DNA of 45,348 nucleotides from Bacteroidales bacterium Bact_22 (lineage in GTDB: Bacteria > Bacteroidota > Bacteroidia > Bacteroidales > F082): the NCBI GenBank assembly GCA_001603665.1, contig LUZN01000015.1, positions 1 to 45,348 on the forward strand, in the 5' to 3' direction. Positions within the stretch are counted from its first letter, which is position 1, and each line of letters opens with the position of its first letter. Positions 6,731 through 16,828 of the stretch are shown piece by piece. Below the pieces are notes generated by a model. The model ran no database searches. It had not been told where the DNA came from and was given only the letters and a program-made list of their open reading frames with translations. A program made the translations under genes and the position numbers.

Positions 6731-9700
6731 ATGAAAAAAGTTTTTCTATTCTTAACGATGCTTTTGTTTGCCTTTGTAGGCACAATGAGAGCTGACGAAG
6801 TAATTATTGGTGATCCTACTGCGACAACAACCAATGCTTATCTTCCGGGTTACTCATTGTATGAAAAAGCAATCTCACAGCAGATGTACACAGCCGACGA
6901 AATCGGTATGGCTGGTACAATCAACACTCTTTCGATGTGGCTGAAGAACACTTCTTCATACGCACGTAACATTAATGTTTACATGAAGGAAGTTGACGAA
7001 ACAGAATTCGCAAGTACTTCAGCTTGGGTGAGCATGTCAGATGCTGACCTTGTCGGCTCATTCTCTTTGGCAAATGGTATTAGCGATCCTGTCGAGACAG
7101 CTGTTGCACTCACTACTCCTTTTGAGTACACAGGTGCTGGCACTCTGGTGATTTGCCTCAATGATGTTACCGGTTCATGGAGCAGTGGCGCAGGTAGTGT
7201 CGTCATGACAACTACTGGATACCAAGCCATGTATGCTTATCGTGACGGTACATCCTATGACCCATCAAATCCAGGTGTTAACGGTACTCGTCTTACAGTA
7301 AAGAGCGTTATTAAGCTCGACATCACTCCAGCTGGTCCTGGTGGAGCGCTCACAACAACTCCAGACGTCCTCGACCTCGGTTATCGTCCAAACGGCGCTT
7401 GGATGGCTCCATACGTGTTCACAATCAATGGCTCAGGTACAACAGTCAATGCATTGGATTTCAGCGGAAACTACTTCACATACAATGCTGAACTTCCTGC
7501 AACACTCACTGCAGCACATCCACTTGAGGTTACTTTGACAACAGGTGAAGCTGAAGAAGGTCCAGTCAACAGCACAATGACAGTTCTCTTTGGCGGCAAC
7601 AGAGACGCACAGCAGTTCGATGTTACAGCTTACGCTTACGACCCGGTTGAGGGTGATGTTTGGGAAAATGCAATAAATGTTACAAATCTCCCATATTCAG
7701 ACAACGCTCCGGCAGGTATCTACAAGAACTACGATCTTCCAGTAGCTACAGAAGGTGCCGATGCTATGTACAAACTGGCATTCAACGATGACGTTCTTTT
7801 GAGCGCTGGTACAAACGGTGCAAACCGTGTTTCAGCTCTTTATCCGGAAGGCTTTAACGGTGAAGGCGGCCCGATGGCTGACAACAACTACACATACGCT
7901 GGTCCGACAATCAACCCAGGCCCAATGAGCATGTGGTTCAGCTACAGCTACACAGGCAGCAACACATTCTTCGGCTCATCAGCAGGTGGCGGAATGATTT
8001 TCGGTTACAGAATCACTCCTGCTATGCTTCAGGAACTCGGTCTTGGCAACTGCGCTATCACAACAGTTGAGGCAGCAGCCCGCGAAGGTTCATACTATGA
8101 CCTCGTGATTTTGAAGGGCGGTGACACACCAGACCTCAACAACATGGTTTACTATCAGTCATTTGAAGATTATACACCATTATATTTCTTCGATCTCAAC
8201 CTTGATGAACCACAGTTCTTAGGTGATGACGAAAACATCTGGGTGATGTTCTATTCAGACTCACCATATGCAGCATACTGCGGTAAACAGCCAGTTGATG
8301 CAGCTAACAGCCAGATTTGGTACACAACAAACCTCACCAACTGGTACAGCAACACAACTTACACTCCTGTGATCTACACTCGTTTCTTAGAGTTACCTAC
8401 AGGTCGTGAAGTTACAGTTAACCTCGCTGACATGAAGATTAGAGAGAGCAAACCAGCAGCTGGTCAGATTGCAGAAGCTAACGGTAATGTAATGGGTGTT
8501 GCAAAAGCACAGATTGCAAAAGCTAACCGTGGCAACCGCGCCAATGTTGATGTTACATTCAACATGGAAGATTCATGGGGTGATGGTTGGAACGGCAGTG
8601 CTGGTATCCAGGTTAATGTCAACGGTATGGATTCTGACTTCGTTACATTGGCAAGTGGTTCAGAAGGTACAGAAGTTATCAGTGTTCCAGAAGGTGCACA
8701 TGTCACTTTGACATGGGTTGCAGGTTCATATGACAGCGAATGCTGGTTTGAAGTTGTAATGGGCGGTGAAACACTCTATACATCAGGTACATTGTCAGCA
8801 GGTTTACTGTTCGAATTTGACGTTCCTGCAACAGGCGCAGTTTATCAGATTTCAGAGATGTTTGTCCCAGCAGGTACATACTATCTCGCAGTGGCTTCAA
8901 CAACAGACAACTTCCCAGTTGACATTATGGTTGAAGACGTTCCTGCTCCAGAACAGGCAGTTATTTACTATCCATATGATGGTGAGACCAACGTTGAGGC
9001 TCCATACCTCGCAGAGTGGGGTCTTGGTGACTACACAGTTGAGATGCAGGTTTTGGTTGGTACACAGTATCCTCCACAAACAGCATTGATCGACTGGACA
9101 GACTATCTCGTTGAGTCAGCATTCATTACCAACCTTGAGCCTAACCAGAGCTACTTCATGCAGGTCAATGCACGTAACGGCGCAGGTACAACCTACGGTG
9201 AAATCATTGCTTTCACAACACCTATCGATCCTGTTGAGGGCTTTGCAGTTGCAGACGATGAACTCTATCCAGGTGATGCAGCAGTGTTCACATGGACAGC
9301 TAACAACCGTACACTCAAAGGTTACAACCTCTATAAGGACGGTGTTAAGGTCAACCCAACTCTCATCACCGAGACAACTTACACAGTTGAAGGTCTTGAG
9401 TACAACATGGACGGTTATGACTTCCAGGTTACAGCTGTTTACGATGCTGGTGAATCAGCATTATCAGATGTCGTTACTGTTTACATGACAGGTTTCGGTT
9501 CAGTTAGCGGTCATGTTTATGACATTGACGTTGAGCATCCAATCGCTGGCGCCACCATCGTGGCTCTCGGTGTTGATGAGCACGGCAACGCACAGACATT
9601 TGAATACACAACAGATGAGACCGGTTTGTATGAAGGCGAAATCCTCGCTGGTATCTATGTAATCGGTATCGTCACAGAAGGTTATCAGAACGAAGGTGTC

Positions 9701-12700
9701 GCTATCACTGTTAACTATGATATGTTGACAGAAGTTGCAGACATCATCACACACGAATTCTACTATCCTCTCCAGCAGATCACAGCTACTGAGGAAGAAG
9801 AAGATGTTTTGGTTGAATGGTCATGGACACCTGCACAGTTGGATGTCGACTTTGAGACAGGCGACTTCTCACAGGCCGACTTCGTTTTGCCAACAATATA
9901 TCCATGGGCAATCACAACAACAAATCCACATGCCGGAACATACTGCATGAAGTCAACATGCGAAGCTCAGGCAAGTGCTTCATCAACAATCGAAATCGTG
10001 GTCGACGTACCATACGACGGTTTGATGGGCTTCTGGGTAAAGGTCTCTTCAGAGGCTAGCTACGATAAGTTCCACTTCTATATCGACGGTGTCGAGAAGG
10101 GTGCAGCTTTGAGCGGCAATCTTGACTATCAGTACAAAGAGTTCCCAGTAGAAGAGGGTACACACACCTACAAGTTCGAATATGCTAAGGATTCATCAGT
10201 GAACAGCAATGATGACTGCGTCTATGTTGACGACGTCACATTGTACAAGCAGGCTGGTCCAGCACCAAGCGGCAACTTCTATGACTTTGATAACAGCACA
10301 ATGCAGGGCTGGACAACAATCGACGGCAATAACGACGGTTACGATTGGGTGCTCGGTTCAGAAATCGGTGGTATCTATCTGGTTTCAGGTGCAAGCCTTG
10401 CCGGTACAGGTCACAACGATTCACAGGATATGGTTTGCTCAGGTTCATACAGCAACGCAACAAGTACTGCTATCACACCTAACAACTTCCTCGTTTCACC
10501 TATGAAGCTTTCAGCTCAGGCTGGTGCATTCATCAACTTCTGGGCATGCGCTCAGGATGCAAGCTATGCAGCAGAGCACTTCGGCGTTGCAGTTTCAACA
10601 GGCAGCAACACCAATGCTGACGACTTCACAATTGTTCAGGAATGGACAATGACATCAAAAAATGCTCCTGAGGCAGAATCTTACAACAAGGTTCGTGGCA
10701 CAAGAGCTCAAGGTAACTGGTATGAGAAGACAGTTGACCTCAGCGCATATGCAGGTCAGGAAATCTGGGTTGCTATCCGCCACTTCAACTGCAACGACCA
10801 GTTCATCTTGAACGTTGATGATATCATGTTGGGTGATGGTTCAGAAGCTGTTGCTCCACGCAACGACCGCTCATTACAGAGCTACATCCTCTATCGTCGC
10901 AACAATGTTGTGAACGAAGAACCGGAAGTTATTGCTGAAGGCATCAACATTGACGTGTTAGAATACACAGACACAGACTGGACAACACTCCCATACGGTG
11001 AGTATCAGTGGGGTATCGCAGCCACATACGAAGGCTATGCTCCAACAGAACGCAGCCGTGAGACAGCTACATTCGGTTTCGAAAACGGTAGCTTGGAAGG
11101 CTGGACAAATCTTATCGTTAACACAGACGGTGGCGAGTGGATCAACAGTGATGACAACCTCGGTGGTTATGACTACACAGAGCTCGCACACACTGGCACA
11201 GGCTTCGCAATGTGCTACTCATATGTTGACTATGTTGGTGCATATGATACAGATGCATACTTCGTATCACCTCAGAAGTACGCAGTTGATGCCAACTCAT
11301 CAATCGCATTCTGGGCAGACAATGCTAACGACGACTATCCTGAGAACTTCTCAGTTTGCGTTTCAACAGCTGAAACCCCAACAGCAGCAAGCTTCACACA
11401 GGTTTGGAGCGGTGGTGCTAAGGGCACAGGCAACGGTGGCGCAGCAGTCCGTCGTTCAGACAACCGTTATGAGAACTGGCGTTCACACGAGATCAGCTTG
11501 GCAGCATACGCAGGCCAGGAGATCTGGATTGCATTCCACGATGTGAACTACGACGAATATGAGATTTGGATTGACGACGTAACAATCACTTACGCTGGTT
11601 CAGCTCCAACTCCTCCAACACCTCCAGCGCCAACAGGCTCAGGTATCTCAGAAATTCTCTGGTCAAATATGATCGAGAAGGATATGGATGCTACAATCAC
11701 TGTCAACGTTGCTTTGAGCAATGGTCAGTTCCCAGAGGGTGCTGAAGTAACAGTCGTTGGTGGCGATGAGACACTCACAGCTACTATCGAGGAAGCTGCA
11801 ACAGTTGAGTTCGATGTCCGCAAGGGTGCCGAATACACAGTATCAGCTACATTAGACGGTTACACAAGTGACAGCGAAGTTGTCTTCGTTGACGAAAACA
11901 AGACAGTTTCTCTCACTCTCGTTGAGCAGGTTATCCCAGTTGAGGGATTGTATGTATCACCAACAGGTTTTGCTAAGTGGGAAGGCCAGATCCCTGGTCC
12001 AACACCAACACCTCCAACACCACCTACACCTCCAACACCAGGTGAGGGTCAGTGGTATCAGTATGGTGATGAAACAATCGCAACAGCTATTGGCGATGAA
12101 GGTCCATTCTGGTGGGCAGTCATGTTCCCAGCCGGTTCATATGAAGGTGAGATGGTGACAAAGGTTGCAACTTATGCAACAGGCTATGAGGAGTTCACTG
12201 GCAATGTCACTATCTACAATGATGGTACATCAGCTCCAGCAACAGCAGTCGGTACAATGGACATCACCGTTCCTAACACAACAGGTATGGTTGAATTTGA
12301 GTTCCCAACACCAGTTGCTATTGATGCTACAAAGAACCTCTGGATTGTTATGTACAATGCAACAAGTACTAACTATGTAGCAGGTGCCAACTCATATTCA
12401 GGCTCGAATGCAGCTTGGGTATCAGAAGACAATACCACATGGTTCACTCTCGGTGAAGCCGGTTTGTCAGGCTATGGTTGGATCCTCAAGGCATACGTTG
12501 CACAGGGTGCTAAGGGTGAAGTCCACGAGATTACAGCTCCTACAGGCACACCTAACATGGCTGGTAAGCTCGCAATGGCTCCAGCAGGCAACCGCGCTCC
12601 TGTTAGCTACAAGGTCATGCTCGATGGTCAGTACCTCGGCGAGACAACATATCCATTCTATCAGTTCGATGTTGCTGACATGGAAGAAGGTTCAGAGCAC

Positions 12701-14656
12701 GTAGCACAGGTTGCTCCTCTCTACGTATCTGGTATGGGTGAATGGATGAGCTACACATGGACATACACTCCATGCGTTGAGTTCGAAGGCACAGAAGAAT
12801 TCGGTGCTGAAGTTGTCACAGTTGAAGACCAGCAGCAGAACATCGTTGTTTCATGGACATTGCCAGAGGGTACTAACCCGCCAGGTCCAAATCCTCCAAC
12901 AGGTGGCTGGACAGAAGGCTTCGAGAGCGGTATGCCAGACGGCTGGACAGTTATCGACGCTAACAACGATGGTTGGACATGGTGCTTGACAAGCGCAATT
13001 CCTTCAACATGGACATACTATGCAAGCATGACACTTGACTGGTATCGTACAGGTTCGAATGCTATCTGCAGCGGTTCATACATCAACGGTGTTGGTGCTC
13101 TTACACCAAACGAGTACCTCGTGACATCACAGGTGACACCAACCAATGGTTCAACATTCTCATTCTATGCAGCAGCAACTGATGCCAGCTATCCAGCTGA
13201 TCACTTCGGAGTTGCAGTTTCAACAACTGGCACGAACGCATCAGACTTCACAATGCTCAACGAATGGACATTGACAGCTAAGGAAGGTGCAGTAGCAGGC
13301 GGTCGCGAATCACGCGATGGCGACGGTGCTAAACTCGGCACATGGTACCAGTATTCAGTTGACCTCAGCAGCTATGCAGGTCAGAATATCTACCTTGCAA
13401 TCCGTCACTTCAACTGCAACGACCAGTACATCATGTGCGTTGACGACCTTGAGTTCACAGCAGCTACTAAGGGCGACAGAGCAATGTGGGATCTTGTTTA
13501 CTCATTCCAGGGCACATCAGGCTACCAGTATGGTGTTGCAACAGATGGTACAAACATCTACACAAGCTCATGGAGCGCAAGCTCAACCTCAATGTTCTAC
13601 AAGTACGACATGACTGGTAACTTCGTTGAAGAGTTCAATATCAGCGGTTGCGGTCAGCTCCGTGGTATGACATACGACGGTGACTACTTCTATGGTGTTG
13701 CCAACTCATCAACAGTTTACTGTGTTGACCTTGCCAACAAGTCACTGGTTTCAACATTCACCACAACCTACGGTGCAATGCGTTGCATCACTTACGATCC
13801 AGTAAGAGACGGTTTCTGGGTAGTTGGTAACTGGTCAGGCAACTTGACACTTATCGATCGTACAGGTGCTATTGTCCAAACAGCTTCAGCTCCGACAAGC
13901 GCATCAGACATTGCATACTTCAAGGATGACAATGATATCGAACATATCATCTATCTCAAGAACGAATCTGGCAACGGTGAAGTTTACGAGTACAATATCA
14001 CAACCAACACAATGGGCACATCACCTGTGTACAACTGCTTGAATACAACAGGTGGTGCAGCAGCATGGACTGGTAGTTCAGGCGGATGCTTCGTTGGCAC
14101 ATACGATGGCAAGACTTGCTTGTTTGCTGACGCACAGCAGTCACCACAGCTCATCAACATCTATGAGTTGAGTGCAAGCGCTCCGGTGCCTCCAACACCT
14201 CCAACACCAAGTGACATTTATGGTGCAATTCTCTATCGTGGAGAAGACTTCATCGGTATCTTCGATGCCAACACAACTTCATACACAGATGAGAACATGG
14301 CTCCAGGCACGTATTCTTACACAATCAGAGTTATCCACGATGGTGACCCAGATGTAACATACTTCGCAATGTCATGCCCAGAGACAATCGATGTGACAGT
14401 ACATCATCTCGCAATTGCTGAGAACGAGGTTGTCAATTCAATCTATCCTAACCCAACAAGCGGCGATCTCAACATCAATGCTGAAGCAATGACACACGTA
14501 ACAGTGTTCAACGCAATGGGTCAGATGGTTTACGACCAGGATGTCAACGCCGATTCAATGGTCCTCAACATGGGTCAGTATGAATCAGGTGTCTACATGG
14601 TCAGAATCGACACTGAGAACGGCAGCAGCGTGAAGAGAATCACAGTTGTCAAGTAA
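6731..14656 (+). CDS. Giant T9SS-secreted multidomain adhesin, paralogue of the upstream gene, 2641 aa
   Basis: Same family and domain order as the upstream giant, but longer. Residues 1-21 are a signal peptide, followed by an IGDP-type beta module and an Ig-like domain. A pre-peptidase-C-like domain is split by about 315 extra residues that include a DSWGDGWNG motif. Fn3-like domains follow, then a carboxypeptidase-regulatory-like domain (about 921-1010). Cleaved-adhesin modules lie at about 1183-1374, 1448-1627 (divergent) and 2058-2244. A proline-threonine linker at about 1757-1770 opens a WYQYGDE module. A propeller-like region spans about 2251-2484. A type A sorting domain is at about 2566-2641. 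The protein should be displayed or released by T9SS. Ligand and any processing are unknown. The hairpin-only spacer upstream allows co-transcription with the first giant. Confidence 0.85.
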   Translation: MKKVFLFLTMLLFAFVGTMRADEVIIGDPTATTTNAYLPGYSLYEKAISQQMYTADEIGMAGTINTLSMWLKNTSSYARNINVYMKEVDETEFASTSAWVSMSDADLVGSFSLANGISDPVETAVALTTPFEYTGAGTLVICLNDVTGSWSSGAGSVVMTTTGYQAMYAYRDGTSYDPSNPGVNGTRLTVKSVIKLDITPAGPGGALTTTPDVLDLGYRPNGAWMAPYVFTINGSGTTVNALDFSGNYFTYNAELPATLTAAHPLEVTLTTGEAEEGPVNSTMTVLFGGNRDAQQFDVTAYAYDPVEGDVWENAINVTNLPYSDNAPAGIYKNYDLPVATEGADAMYKLAFNDDVLLSAGTNGANRVSALYPEGFNGEGGPMADNNYTYAGPTINPGPMSMWFSYSYTGSNTFFGSSAGGGMIFGYRITPAMLQELGLGNCAITTVEAAAREGSYYDLVILKGGDTPDLNNMVYYQSFEDYTPLYFFDLNLDEPQFLGDDENIWVMFYSDSPYAAYCGKQPVDAANSQIWYTTNLTNWYSNTTYTPVIYTRFLELPTGREVTVNLADMKIRESKPAAGQIAEANGNVMGVAKAQIAKANRGNRANVDVTFNMEDSWGDGWNGSAGIQVNVNGMDSDFVTLASGSEGTEVISVPEGAHVTLTWVAGSYDSECWFEVVMGGETLYTSGTLSAGLLFEFDVPATGAVYQISEMFVPAGTYYLAVASTTDNFPVDIMVEDVPAPEQAVIYYPYDGETNVEAPYLAEWGLGDYTVEMQVLVGTQYPPQTALIDWTDYLVESAFITNLEPNQSYFMQVNARNGAGTTYGEIIAFTTPIDPVEGFAVADDELYPGDAAVFTWTANNRTLKGYNLYKDGVKVNPTLITETTYTVEGLEYNMDGYDFQVTAVYDAGESALSDVVTVYMTGFGSVSGHVYDIDVEHPIAGATIVALGVDEHGNAQTFEYTTDETGLYEGEILAGIYVIGIVTEGYQNEGVAITVNYDMLTEVADIITHEFYYPLQQITATEEEEDVLVEWSWTPAQLDVDFETGDFSQADFVLPTIYPWAITTTNPHAGTYCMKSTCEAQASASSTIEIVVDVPYDGLMGFWVKVSSEASYDKFHFYIDGVEKGAALSGNLDYQYKEFPVEEGTHTYKFEYAKDSSVNSNDDCVYVDDVTLYKQAGPAPSGNFYDFDNSTMQGWTTIDGNNDGYDWVLGSEIGGIYLVSGASLAGTGHNDSQDMVCSGSYSNATSTAITPNNFLVSPMKLSAQAGAFINFWACAQDASYAAEHFGVAVSTGSNTNADDFTIVQEWTMTSKNAPEAESYNKVRGTRAQGNWYEKTVDLSAYAGQEIWVAIRHFNCNDQFILNVDDIMLGDGSEAVAPRNDRSLQSYILYRRNNVVNEEPEVIAEGINIDVLEYTDTDWTTLPYGEYQWGIAATYEGYAPTERSRETATFGFENGSLEGWTNLIVNTDGGEWINSDDNLGGYDYTELAHTGTGFAMCYSYVDYVGAYDTDAYFVSPQKYAVDANSSIAFWADNANDDYPENFSVCVSTAETPTAASFTQVWSGGAKGTGNGGAAVRRSDNRYENWRSHEISLAAYAGQEIWIAFHDVNYDEYEIWIDDVTITYAGSAPTPPTPPAPTGSGISEILWSNMIEKDMDATITVNVALSNGQFPEGAEVTVVGGDETLTATIEEAATVEFDVRKGAEYTVSATLDGYTSDSEVVFVDENKTVSLTLVEQVIPVEGLYVSPTGFAKWEGQIPGPTPTPPTPPTPPTPGEGQWYQYGDETIATAIGDEGPFWWAVMFPAGSYEGEMVTKVATYATGYEEFTGNVTIYNDGTSAPATAVGTMDITVPNTTGMVEFEFPTPVAIDATKNLWIVMYNATSTNYVAGANSYSGSNAAWVSEDNTTWFTLGEAGLSGYGWILKAYVAQGAKGEVHEITAPTGTPNMAGKLAMAPAGNRAPVSYKVMLDGQYLGETTYPFYQFDVADMEEGSEHVAQVAPLYVSGMGEWMSYTWTYTPCVEFEGTEEFGAEVVTVEDQQQNIVVSWTLPEGTNPPGPNPPTGGWTEGFESGMPDGWTVIDANNDGWTWCLTSAIPSTWTYYASMTLDWYRTGSNAICSGSYINGVGALTPNEYLVTSQVTPTNGSTFSFYAAATDASYPADHFGVAVSTTGTNASDFTMLNEWTLTAKEGAVAGGRESRDGDGAKLGTWYQYSVDLSSYAGQNIYLAIRHFNCNDQYIMCVDDLEFTAATKGDRAMWDLVYSFQGTSGYQYGVATDGTNIYTSSWSASSTSMFYKYDMTGNFVEEFNISGCGQLRGMTYDGDYFYGVANSSTVYCVDLANKSLVSTFTTTYGAMRCITYDPVRDGFWVVGNWSGNLTLIDRTGAIVQTASAPTSASDIAYFKDDNDIEHIIYLKNESGNGEVYEYNITTNTMGTSPVYNCLNTTGGAAAWTGSSGGCFVGTYDGKTCLFADAQQSPQLINIYELSASAPVPPTPPTPSDIYGAILYRGEDFIGIFDANTTSYTDENMAPGTYSYTIRVIHDGDPDVTYFAMSCPETIDVTVHHLAIAENEVVNSIYPNPTSGDLNINAEAMTHVTVFNAMGQMVYDQDVNADSMVLNMGQYESGVYMVRIDTENGSSVKRITVVK
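10276..10850 (+). repeat. Cleaved-adhesin module, DNA copy 3
   Basis: Nearly the same sequence as the module at 4875-5415, with a short insertion where the sister copy has GEGAMGIGRDG. It is inserted after another beta module inside the third Fn3-like carrier of the longer giant protein. Confidence 0.7.
12902..13460 (+). repeat. Cleaved-adhesin module, DNA copy 4
   Basis: A more diverged member with W.VIDANNDGWTW and RHFNCNDQYIMCVDD motifs. As in the first giant gene, it is directly followed by the propeller-like region, so module plus propeller behave as one cassette in both genes. Confidence 0.65.
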
Positions 14657-15348: not shown

Positions 15349-16263
15349 TCAAAGAACGAACTTTTCAACGTTTTTCACGACAATTTCCAGTCTAAAAAGA
15401 AATGCTTCTTTTGTTGCAAATCCTATATGTGGCAGCAACATCGTGTTTGGCGCTGTCAGAATCGGGTTGTCGTTACTCAATGGCGGCTCACCATCGTAGA
15501 CATCCAATGCGGCGCCTGCGATAACGCCGTTTTTCAACGCTTCGGCAAGGTCAGCAGTGTTAACCACCGGACCTCGTGCTGCGTTAACGATGATTGCCGA
15601 TGGCTTCATCAATGCAAAGTCTTTGGCAGTCAAGAAGTTACGCGTTTCGTTGTTTAATGCGATATGCAATGCCACGATATCTGATTCCTTGAGCAGCGTC
15701 GCCTTGTCGACAAATGTCACTCCAGATACTTGTTTCGGTGTGCGGTTCCAAGCAATCACCTTGCATCCGAAGGCTTGTGCCAAGGCAGCTGTTCTCTGTC
15801 CGATGGCTCCCATGCCGATGATGCCGACAGTCTTGCCCGCAATCTCGCGTCCAGGCGCTATCGAAGGACCTTTACAGCTACGCGTAATCTTATCGTTTTC
15901 AATGACATGACGATACAATCCTATCATCATGCAGATAGTCTCTTCTGCCACAGCCTCGGTAGAATAGCCGGCAGCATTCATCACCGTGATGCCACGACGC
16001 TTGCACTCGTCCATGTCGATATGGTCGAGACCCGTAAATGCTATCGAAAGCATCTTAAGGTTTGGACATGCATCAAAGAAATCCTTGCGCAACGGCATAT
16101 TACTTTCAAGAACGATGTCGGCTCCTGCCGCACGTTCAATGTTCTCCTCCGGCTTGCGGTCAGGATAAACCACAACCTCATGTCCATGTTTCTTTAAATT
16201 GTCACAAGCCTTCTCAATGGCTTCCACAGTGAGTCCTAACGGCTCCAAAAAGACTATCTTCAT
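15349..16263 (-). CDS. D-2-hydroxyacid dehydrogenase, NAD(P)-dependent, 304 aa
   Basis: A cytoplasmic oxidoreductase interconverting 2-keto acids and D-2-hydroxy acids. The Rossmann motif is GIIGMGAIGQ. Catalytic positions are the Arg in NAARGPVV, the Glu in DVYDGEPPL and the His in LLPHIGFAT. The exact substrate (glycerate, lactate, phosphoglycerate or other) cannot be read from the sequence. There is no C-terminal ACT domain, so it is not a full-length SerA. I chose the ATG at 16263 because a TATCTTTG promoter at 16291-16298 lies inside the longer frame that could begin at 16332, and family similarity starts at MKIVFLEPLG. It converges on the phosphopantetheinyl transferase gene with a 20-base gap. 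Confidence 0.85.
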   Translation of the reverse strand: MKIVFLEPLGLTVEAIEKACDNLKKHGHEVVVYPDRKPEENIERAAGADIVLESNMPLRKDFFDACPNLKMLSIAFTGLDHIDMDECKRRGITVMNAAGYSTEAVAEETICMMIGLYRHVIENDKITRSCKGPSIAPGREIAGKTVGIIGMGAIGQRTAALAQAFGCKVIAWNRTPKQVSGVTFVDKATLLKESDIVALHIALNNETRNFLTAKDFALMKPSAIIVNAARGPVVNTADLAEALKNGVIAGAALDVYDGEPPLSNDNPILTAPNTMLLPHIGFATKEAFLFRLEIVVKNVEKFVL

Positions 16264-16290
16264 CGTTTTCAGTGTGTTTGTTTCAAACAA

Positions 16291-16298
16291 CAAAGATA
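16291..16298 (-). promoter_or_regulatory. -7 element of the hydroxyacid dehydrogenase gene
   Basis: Minus-strand TATCTTTG fits TAnnTTTG and lies about 28 bases before the chosen ATG at 16263. Its position rules against the upstream start at 16332. Confidence 0.65.
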
Positions 16299-16325
16299 GT
16301 CTTTTTTTCAACACAGCGCATTTTT

Positions 16326-16459
16326 TATTCATGAAGGGACCTTTCCGACATGATCATATTAAAATCTGAGCATCGTAAAACAAAATAAGCAATGTAGTAG
16401 TCAAAACAGTAGAAGTGGAGACTTGGGAGCTCCACAGCGGCAGGCCCCTACCATGAATA
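16326..16459 (-). ncRNA. Candidate structured RNA or 3' UTR element directly downstream of ssb
   Basis: The element starts at the base after the ssb stop codon. A closing stem pairs TATTCATG (16452-16459) with CATGAATA (16326-16333). A second 8-bp stem pairs 16442-16449 with 16335-16342. One pair of that second stem is G-U if transcribed from the minus strand but A-C on the plus strand, which favours a minus-strand RNA. Inside, GTGGAG and CTCCAC form a further hairpin. No protein frame explains it. It could be an ssb 3' UTR structure, a processed small RNA or an independent RNA. I could not match it to 6S, SRP, tmRNA or RNase P RNA. Confidence 0.4.
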
Positions 16460-16828
16460 CTACTCGGCAGAATCCTTCGACTCGTCTTCGTTACTCATTT
16501 TGTCGATGAGCATAAACTCGTCCATCACAACCTCTGTAACGCGACGTTTGTTCTTGTCCTTGTCATCATACTCCCGAGTCTGTAACTTGCCTTCCAGGGC
16601 CATTAAACGGCCTTTCCTAACGATTTTTTCCACAATCTCGGCTGTCCTTCCCCATGCGATGATGTTGTGCCACTCCGTTTCCTGCACGAGCTCCATATTA
16701 TCATTGTAATGTTTCTCGTTGGTGGCCAATGTAAATTTGGCAAGCTTTCTGTTCTCACCGAATTTCTTAATCTCCGGATCCATGCCCGGACGACCAATCA
16801 AATGAACTGAATTTCTCAAGGTTCCCAT
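16460..16828 (-). CDS. ssb: Single-stranded DNA-binding protein, 122 aa, short form
   Basis: Binds and protects single-stranded DNA during replication, repair and recombination. The N-terminal region has the usual SSB OB-fold signature: NSVHLIGRPGMDPEIK, then KFTLATNE, then TEWHNIIAWGRTAEI. It is shorter than a typical SSB, and its acidic tail (SNEDESKDSAE) lacks the IPF/LPF tip that normally recruits partner proteins. It may therefore be a secondary SSB or one with altered partner binding. It has its own promoter, separate from dnaG upstream on the same strand, and is followed at once by a candidate structured RNA. Confidence 0.9.
   Translation of the reverse strand: MGTLRNSVHLIGRPGMDPEIKKFGENRKLAKFTLATNEKHYNDNMELVQETEWHNIIAWGRTAEIVEKIVRKGRLMALEGKLQTREYDDKDKNKRRVTEVVMDEFMLIDKMSNEDESKDSAE

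Follow-up and report, generated by a model that had tools for sequence, protein, structure and literature searches.

What is the 134-nt structured element that begins where ssb ends in this genome, and what would it do at that place? The window, by which we mean the whole 45,348-nt stretch of DNA that was analysed, carries the ssb gene (TIGR00621) at positions 16460-16828 of the minus strand, with its stop codon at 16462-16460, and the element follows on the same strand with zero spacing (16326-16459). Next on the minus strand lies a D-2-hydroxyacid dehydrogenase gene (15349-16263, beginning MKIVFLEPLG), taken here from the likely start codon at 16263-16261 in place of the more upstream start given in the ORF listing. 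Elsewhere in the window, positions 6731-14656 of the plus strand hold a 2641-aa ORF with repeated segments and a C-terminus that, by eye, resembles a type IX secretion sorting domain.

A conserved fold on the ssb strand

The initial annotation had placed a structured element right at the ssb stop codon and had described two stacked stems with a hairpin inside them, and this description was borne out. The outer closing stem joins its 5' arm CATGAATA (16452-16459) to its 3' arm TATTCATG (16326-16333) with all eight positions paired; the second stem joins AGGCCCCT (16442-16449) to AGGGACCT (16335-16342) with seven of eight positions paired and the eighth a G-U, and this lone non-Watson-Crick pair is G-U on the minus strand only. 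Both stems rest on a check of the letters and on covariation. Within them, GTGGAG (16415-16420) pairs with CTCCAC (16430-16435) in an inner hairpin (16415-16435, minus strand) that is likewise marked by covariation. The element also lies upstream of the dehydrogenase promoter, as had been stated: the -7 box of that gene, TATCTTTG, is at 16298-16291 of the minus strand and was recognized from the pattern TAnnTTTG, which we take to be the Bacteroidetes -7 consensus here and in the leaders described below. The earlier view that the element is not simply a terminator was correct, since its stem is followed by AAAAA and not by a terminal T-run; an intrinsic terminator, that is, a G+C-rich stem with a T-run, was rejected for this reason, and a separate terminator-like stem is found further downstream.

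Folding of the single sequence gave -38.5 kcal/mol for the minus strand (z -2.72) and -30.9 kcal/mol for the plus strand (z -1.93), with 3 of 200 shuffles equally good in either case. Fold energy from one sequence is only suggestive, and the reality of the fold is decided by the relatives. Records similar to the congeneric genomes belong to uncultured Bacteroidales, several of which come from ruminants. An ssb-like protein is present in 96 of 99 congeneric genomes; the region that follows ssb was inspected in 30 loci, our own included, and with less care in 12 more, and the remaining congeneric genomes were covered by a search with the covariance model R1 alone under strict filters. Seventeen of the 30 loci (L004-L014 and L017-L022) have a fold of this kind in the interval from the ssb stop codon to the dehydrogenase promoter. 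Sixteen sequences were aligned (alignment A1, from which L007 was omitted as identical to L006 and in which L114, the second copy of genome G030, is absent), and 95.1% of the cells of the 27-pair consensus structure are paired, compared with 34-55% in slid control structures. Both-sided changes occur at 13 of the 27 pairs, and none of 500 shuffles did as well on any of five measures; this was the covariation check proposed beforehand, and the fold passed it. Six of the seven consensus pairs of the inner hairpin are changed on both sides among relatives. Furthermore, many of the aligned sequences have G-U at several pairs (12 of the 16 at column pair 17/191), where the opposite strand would have A-C, so the RNA strand is that of ssb, the direction that had been suggested from the single G-U pair. 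Taken together, these data demonstrate that the fold behind ssb is real.

The covariance model detected the element in 17 of the 99 congeneric genomes with E 2.2e-21 or better, always behind ssb. The strong matches come to 18 places, two of them in G030, each behind an ssb copy, and 16 of the 18 are model-building sequences or identical to one. The one weak match in an eighteenth genome, G018, is a leader and not the RNA. At the ssb loci of G018 and G032 (L015 and L016) the dehydrogenase promoter comes immediately after ssb and the element is absent. Among 295 genomes of the order R1 matched five, three of them from the same genus, and outside the genus nothing convincing was found, the two other matches being weak and unlike the RNA. 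Rfam searches of the window and of five leader loci gave no match above the curated cut-off; five weak matches, up to E 5 and far below the cut-off, were to snoRNA or miRNA families. A MITE or other mobile repeat with inverted ends was rejected, as the own genome has one full copy and the element occurs elsewhere behind ssb only.

An antisense core and the leaders that carry its complement

The main finding, which goes beyond what the initial annotation had proposed, is an antisense core in the element together with its targets. The large loop presented by the stems contains the invariant core TTTTGTTTTACGATGCTC (16368-16385, minus strand). Its pairwise identity is 94%, whereas 41 other columns of the loop reach 52% and the stem regions 77%, and its orientation within the fold is the same at every one of the 17 loci. 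In some species GTTTTACGA and ATGCTC of the core are separated by short insertions. In computed folds the core is only partly unpaired, with values for GTTTTAC ranging from 0.20 to 0.83 by species and for the whole RNA from 0.33 to 0.44. A peptide starting at the ATG inside the core was considered and discarded, the reading frames varying among relatives when compared by eye.

Five weak matches of the model in congeners (L113 and L115-L118) are leaders read on the other strand; they shared only the core with the RNA, on the strand opposite to that of the following gene, and this was the clue to the target leaders. The core is antisense to a site S, AGCATCGTAAAAC, and in gene direction the leaders consist of a TAnnTTTG box, then S, then the start codon. 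The own-genome leader (G000:C21:3672-3714, minus strand) precedes a 315-aa ORF6N gene. A 14-mer, AGCATCGTAAAACA, was found at 39 places in the 99 genomes, compared with 3 for its reversed control, and in context these places were nine copies of the ssb-linked RNA, 27 leaders and three sites that were neither (in G001, G003 and G082). The TAnnTTTG box stands 18-28 nt before S in all 27 leaders and at none of the three remaining places. Twenty-two of these leaders belong to RNA-bearing genomes and five to G018, G032 and G067, genomes in which the RNA was not found at ssb loci or by model search. Under a looser box-plus-site pattern, 14 of the 17 RNA-bearing genomes and 3 of the 82 RNA-less ones have leaders (Fisher p 1e-11, uncorrected for kinship). 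The RNA-less genomes were judged by reading loci or, where a match had no locus, by the string alone, and the same pattern found no leader in the RNA-bearing genomes G030, G062 and G081. It should be noted that many leaders were found by BLAST or via S itself, so that the conservation of S among them is partly circular, and that with related genomes and paralogous leaders many of these counts are not independent. In viral contigs, 37 stretches match TTTGN{12,30}AGCATCGTAAAACA, one of them with a TAnnTTTG box, and the longer RNA core has no match there. Near position 1500 of L204 (G096:C1:200736) a box is followed by AAGCATAGTAAAACAAAA, with two mismatches to the site pattern, ahead of a long stretch with no obvious start codon that is possibly another RNA.

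Duplex energies were computed for 41 same-genome pairs of RNA and leader, in which some leaders count with two boxes and the leaders were hand-chosen from BLAST or site finds. No equally low energy occurred among 100 shuffles in 25 of the pairs, 12 were matched by 1-4 of 100 shuffles and four by 25-82, three of these from G098 (which has four pairs, three of them no better than shuffles) and one from G078. The longest perfect matches are 13 nt in the own genome, with the ORF6N leader, and up to 19 nt in G076 and G094. A second antisense stretch in G034 is collinear with the core; G039 also has a second match, of 14 nt, whose order would not allow a single uninterrupted duplex. Across 14 genomes and 39 leaders the RNAs fit the leaders of their own genome no better than foreign ones (p 0.47); by this measure co-evolution of RNA and leader was not seen inside clade A.

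The genes behind the leaders are diverse. Representatives score above the Pfam cut-off for ORF6N, DUF1016_N, HicA_toxin, HSDR_N_2, SLFN_AlbA_2, PBECR1 and LPD3; a four-helix-bundle protein passes the cut-off in NCBIfam only, and one protein with an EFYE N-terminus has an LPD3 match just below the Pfam cut-off. PADLOC recognized the ORF6N protein as PDC-S05, the DUF1016 protein as PDC-S02 and the HSDR protein as a type IIG restriction-methyltransferase; its match to the Schlafen protein was weak (E 0.0096), and HicA, PBECR1, LPD3, the EFYE protein and the four-helix protein had no PADLOC match. In a rough control, two of ten other proteins were matched (WYL and PDC-S26), both near a leader gene in L152. 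The matched families are mutually unrelated, and their common feature is the leader, reduced mostly to S when different leader classes are compared. PBECR and LPD domains are known from conflict proteins of phages and conjugative elements, as set out in part of PMC5512222. In five genomes (L148-L152) two leader genes face outward from the ends of a 10-13.5 kb stretch, and the stretches of L152 and, by eye, L149 contain other defence-type genes. Different proteins at twelve loci (L149-L152, L154, L156-L158, L219, L226, L238 and L242) share the same leader and the first codons M-x-K-K-E-F-Y-E; the codons GAG TTT TAC GA among them complement S, and these first codons may belong to the regulatory cassette. 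Altogether, the sequences point most probably to a new antisense RNA linked to ssb, which would target dispersed candidate defence or conflict genes with a shared leader.

In a second clade of six genomes (clade B; L023-L028) the element behind ssb is longer and includes a 19-nt block, ACATTTCATCCTTGTTTTT, that is invariant. RhuM/ORF6N-type genes of this clade (PF13310; PADLOC PDC-S05) carry another leader, ..CGGATGAAATGGTTA.., directly after the box, which occurs 19 times in five of the six genomes and is missing from G044, an assembly that is 62% complete. This leader was not found in the other 93 genomes as judged from matched strings, of which two outside clade B were read in context and the rest by string. 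Inside the 19-nt block, CATTTCATCC is a 10-nt antisense to the leader, a length that mononucleotide shuffles reach in 1-10 of 200 per pair; the leaders of this clade are paralogous and therefore count as one case, and the pair of RNA and leader is a suggestive parallel to clade A. Nine further genomes (clade C; L029, L030, L032, L033, L369, L371, L372, L373 and L375) have folded elements of different sequence behind ssb, which are possibly a third type of the same RNA. Several of them have, by eye, a CATAAATTTT..GTTTTTGG-like stretch in common. A target predicted for clade C from three genomes gave ten matches in nine genomes, none of them a clade C genome.

Probable transcript origin and possible consequences of pairing

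No TAnnTTTG box is present in the last 250 nt of ssb in any of 17 loci, so the RNA is probably the tail of the ssb transcript or cut from it, and it is most likely part of the ssb 3' UTR. Downstream, an A-run, a 14-bp stem and a T-run form a terminator-like structure (16247-16306, minus strand) whose 5' arm AAAAAGACTATCTT (16293-16306) overlaps the dehydrogenase promoter box and whose 3' arm AAGATAGTCTTTTT (16247-16260) comprises codons 2-6 of that gene. All 14 pairs of the stem are intact at 19 of the 30 loci, and broken pairs are seen at others; paired changes occur at two positions (in L023-L026 and L031), and the stem is also present in L015 and L016, both without the RNA. It is possible that this stem marks the end of the ssb transcript, and a terminator built into the promoter and coding start of the next gene would be unusual. 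The dehydrogenase gene is probably a neighbour outside the regulatory system.

S also complements the start region of the mRNA that carries it, and does so in several unrelated genes. In 14 leaders with the N-terminus xxEFYE the complement of S is GTTTTACGA in codons 5-8, and in an ORF6N class and in PBECR1 genes it is ACGATGCT at -11 and GATGCT at -12, respectively; the RNA core includes both GTTTTACGA and ACGATGCT. In the own-genome leader S forms an interrupted stem over the start codon, with a longest match of 5 nt that is not significant. Over 16 gene classes the combined p value for complementarity between S and start region is 4e-4, carried by three classes at or below 0.05. When S was blocked in computed folds, there was no significant general opening of the start region (p 0.90 and 0.33; the leader of the second gene of L150 was not placed in the first computation), and strong opening was seen in the own-genome leader (0.15 to 0.51) and in PBECR1 leaders.

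These observations make it likely, in our view, that the element gives rise to a small 3'-UTR RNA of ssb which base-pairs in trans with portable leaders of candidate anti-phage genes. The RNA would either be the ssb 3' UTR itself or be processed out of it, and would act as a separate molecule; its conserved closing stem and inner hairpin would present the large loop with the invariant core, which in cells would pair with S near the 5' end of the leaders of dispersed, unrelated accessory genes. Pairing would set the translation or stability of these mRNAs together, many of them encoding candidate anti-phage proteins, and the position behind ssb would tie the target genes to ssb transcription. 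Evidence against this reading comes from the missing genome-specific fit, the poor pairs of G098, the three genomes with leaders in which no RNA was found and the three with the RNA in which no leader was found, the incomplete unpairing of the core, the absence of a general opening when S is blocked and the clade C target that was not found.

As for the sign of the effect, which we infer from the leaders, the chances that the RNA takes S off the start region, and so derepresses the target, seem to us about even. S is complementary to the start region and the core resembles the start region, and derepression is for this reason favoured over repression. An extended form, tentative and on the whole unlikely, is that of an ssb-coupled RNA switch over a defence regulon, in which leaders shut themselves through S, the RNA as a copy of the start strand opens them jointly when ssb is transcribed, e.g., during DNA stress or phage attack, and seed and leader are exchanged as a pair between clades. 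The same RNA and the same pairing could also repress, with a duplex of 13-19 nt or longer that keeps ribosomes from entering or is cleaved by RNase III; we regard this as quite possible while leaning against it. The predicted duplexes are long, the target genes (HicA, nucleases) are plausible burdens, and S sits at the extreme 5' end of the mRNA, a long way before the start codon, like the IstR-1 site described in PMC4147584, but repression leaves the complementarity between S and the start region in several unrelated genes unexplained.

Other readings place the function elsewhere. The direction might be reversed, with the element a cis element of the ssb mRNA whose decay or translation is altered in trans by leader transcripts. 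Complementarity itself carries no direction, and the element lies in the ssb transcript by position, without a promoter box of its own in those 250 nt; however, one ssb faces one to four or more leaders per genome, and S is kept across leader classes that otherwise differ, both of which fit a shared regulator better and make the reversed direction rather improbable. The core could instead be a DNA site, for protein binding or recombination, at ssb and in the leaders, with the fold a separate matter, as the core is common DNA and the leaders resemble portable cassettes before different genes; the fixed orientation of S and its distance from the promoter box in 27 of 27 leaders, and the single orientation of the core inside the fold at all 17 loci, render this improbable. 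A similarly low probability applies to an ordinary structure that stabilises or processes the 3' end of the ssb mRNA, with the match inherited from an old leader insertion. Stems at mRNA ends are common, and folded elements of other sequence do stand behind ssb in further genomes, but the core exceeds the stem regions in conservation, the opposite of what a relic would show. Very improbable, finally, is a riboswitch-like or other cis element of the dehydrogenase gene: each of the 17 loci does have the element between ssb and the dehydrogenase gene, and the hairpin over the dehydrogenase start comes next, yet the -7 box is downstream of the element, so that the gene's own transcript would exclude it, L015 and L016 retain gene and promoter without the element, and the antisense leaders would go unexplained.

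Comparison with known systems

How bacteria control many separately acquired defence or conflict genes as one is, to our knowledge, largely open. The sequences point to an RNA answer, in which one RNA tied to a core replication gene would serve a short leader that acquired genes can carry. A literature search, preprints being outside its scope, found no description of the ssb-linked RNA or of the leader. In its proposed action the RNA is reminiscent of DsrA on rpoS, where a small RNA opens a leader that is shut upon itself; we suggest that the ssb-linked RNA would similarly act by removing the leader stretch that covers the start region. In contrast to DsrA and rpoS, the computed opening was not significant overall, and the leader is common to unrelated genes.

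The PBECR1 and LPD3 domains of target genes share their origin with the polyvalent or conflict proteins of PMC5512222; the parts of that source used here describe the proteins and no shared leader or RNA. A type I antitoxin offers another comparison, as IstR-1 of E. coli has 21 nt of complementarity to the long 5' UTR of tisB, far upstream of the start codon, in the account given in part of PMC4147584. IstR-1 is encoded beside a single target (same part of PMC4147584), whereas the proposed targets of the ssb-linked RNA are unrelated genes at scattered places, several to a genome, and the RNA itself probably lies in the ssb 3' UTR. A type I antitoxin RNA was rejected on these grounds: the leaders are on other contigs or far away, the neighbours of the RNA are ssb and the dehydrogenase gene, and the targets are ORF6N, DUF1016, PBECR1, LPD3, HicA and other genes and not a small membrane peptide.

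FopS of Bacteroides thetaiotaomicron, as described in part of PMC11697453, is a group of 14 RNA paralogs in which the 5' seed is single-stranded and a terminator hairpin follows; it binds near the start codons of SusC-type transporters and is deposited in Rfam. Membership of the FopS family was rejected for the ssb-linked RNA, which has a single own-genome copy and a closed loop around its seed, and for which the window gave no Rfam match. The ssb-linked RNA differs from FopS in being present once per genome (twice in G030), in holding its seed within a closed loop and in having its site near the 5' end of accessory-gene leaders. It resembles FopS and GibS, which are base-pairing small RNAs of Bacteroidales, in its conserved seed and in the proposed set of several mRNAs that it would target, and, according to the same part of PMC11697453, one FopS member is derived from a 3' UTR, as is proposed here for the ssb-linked RNA.
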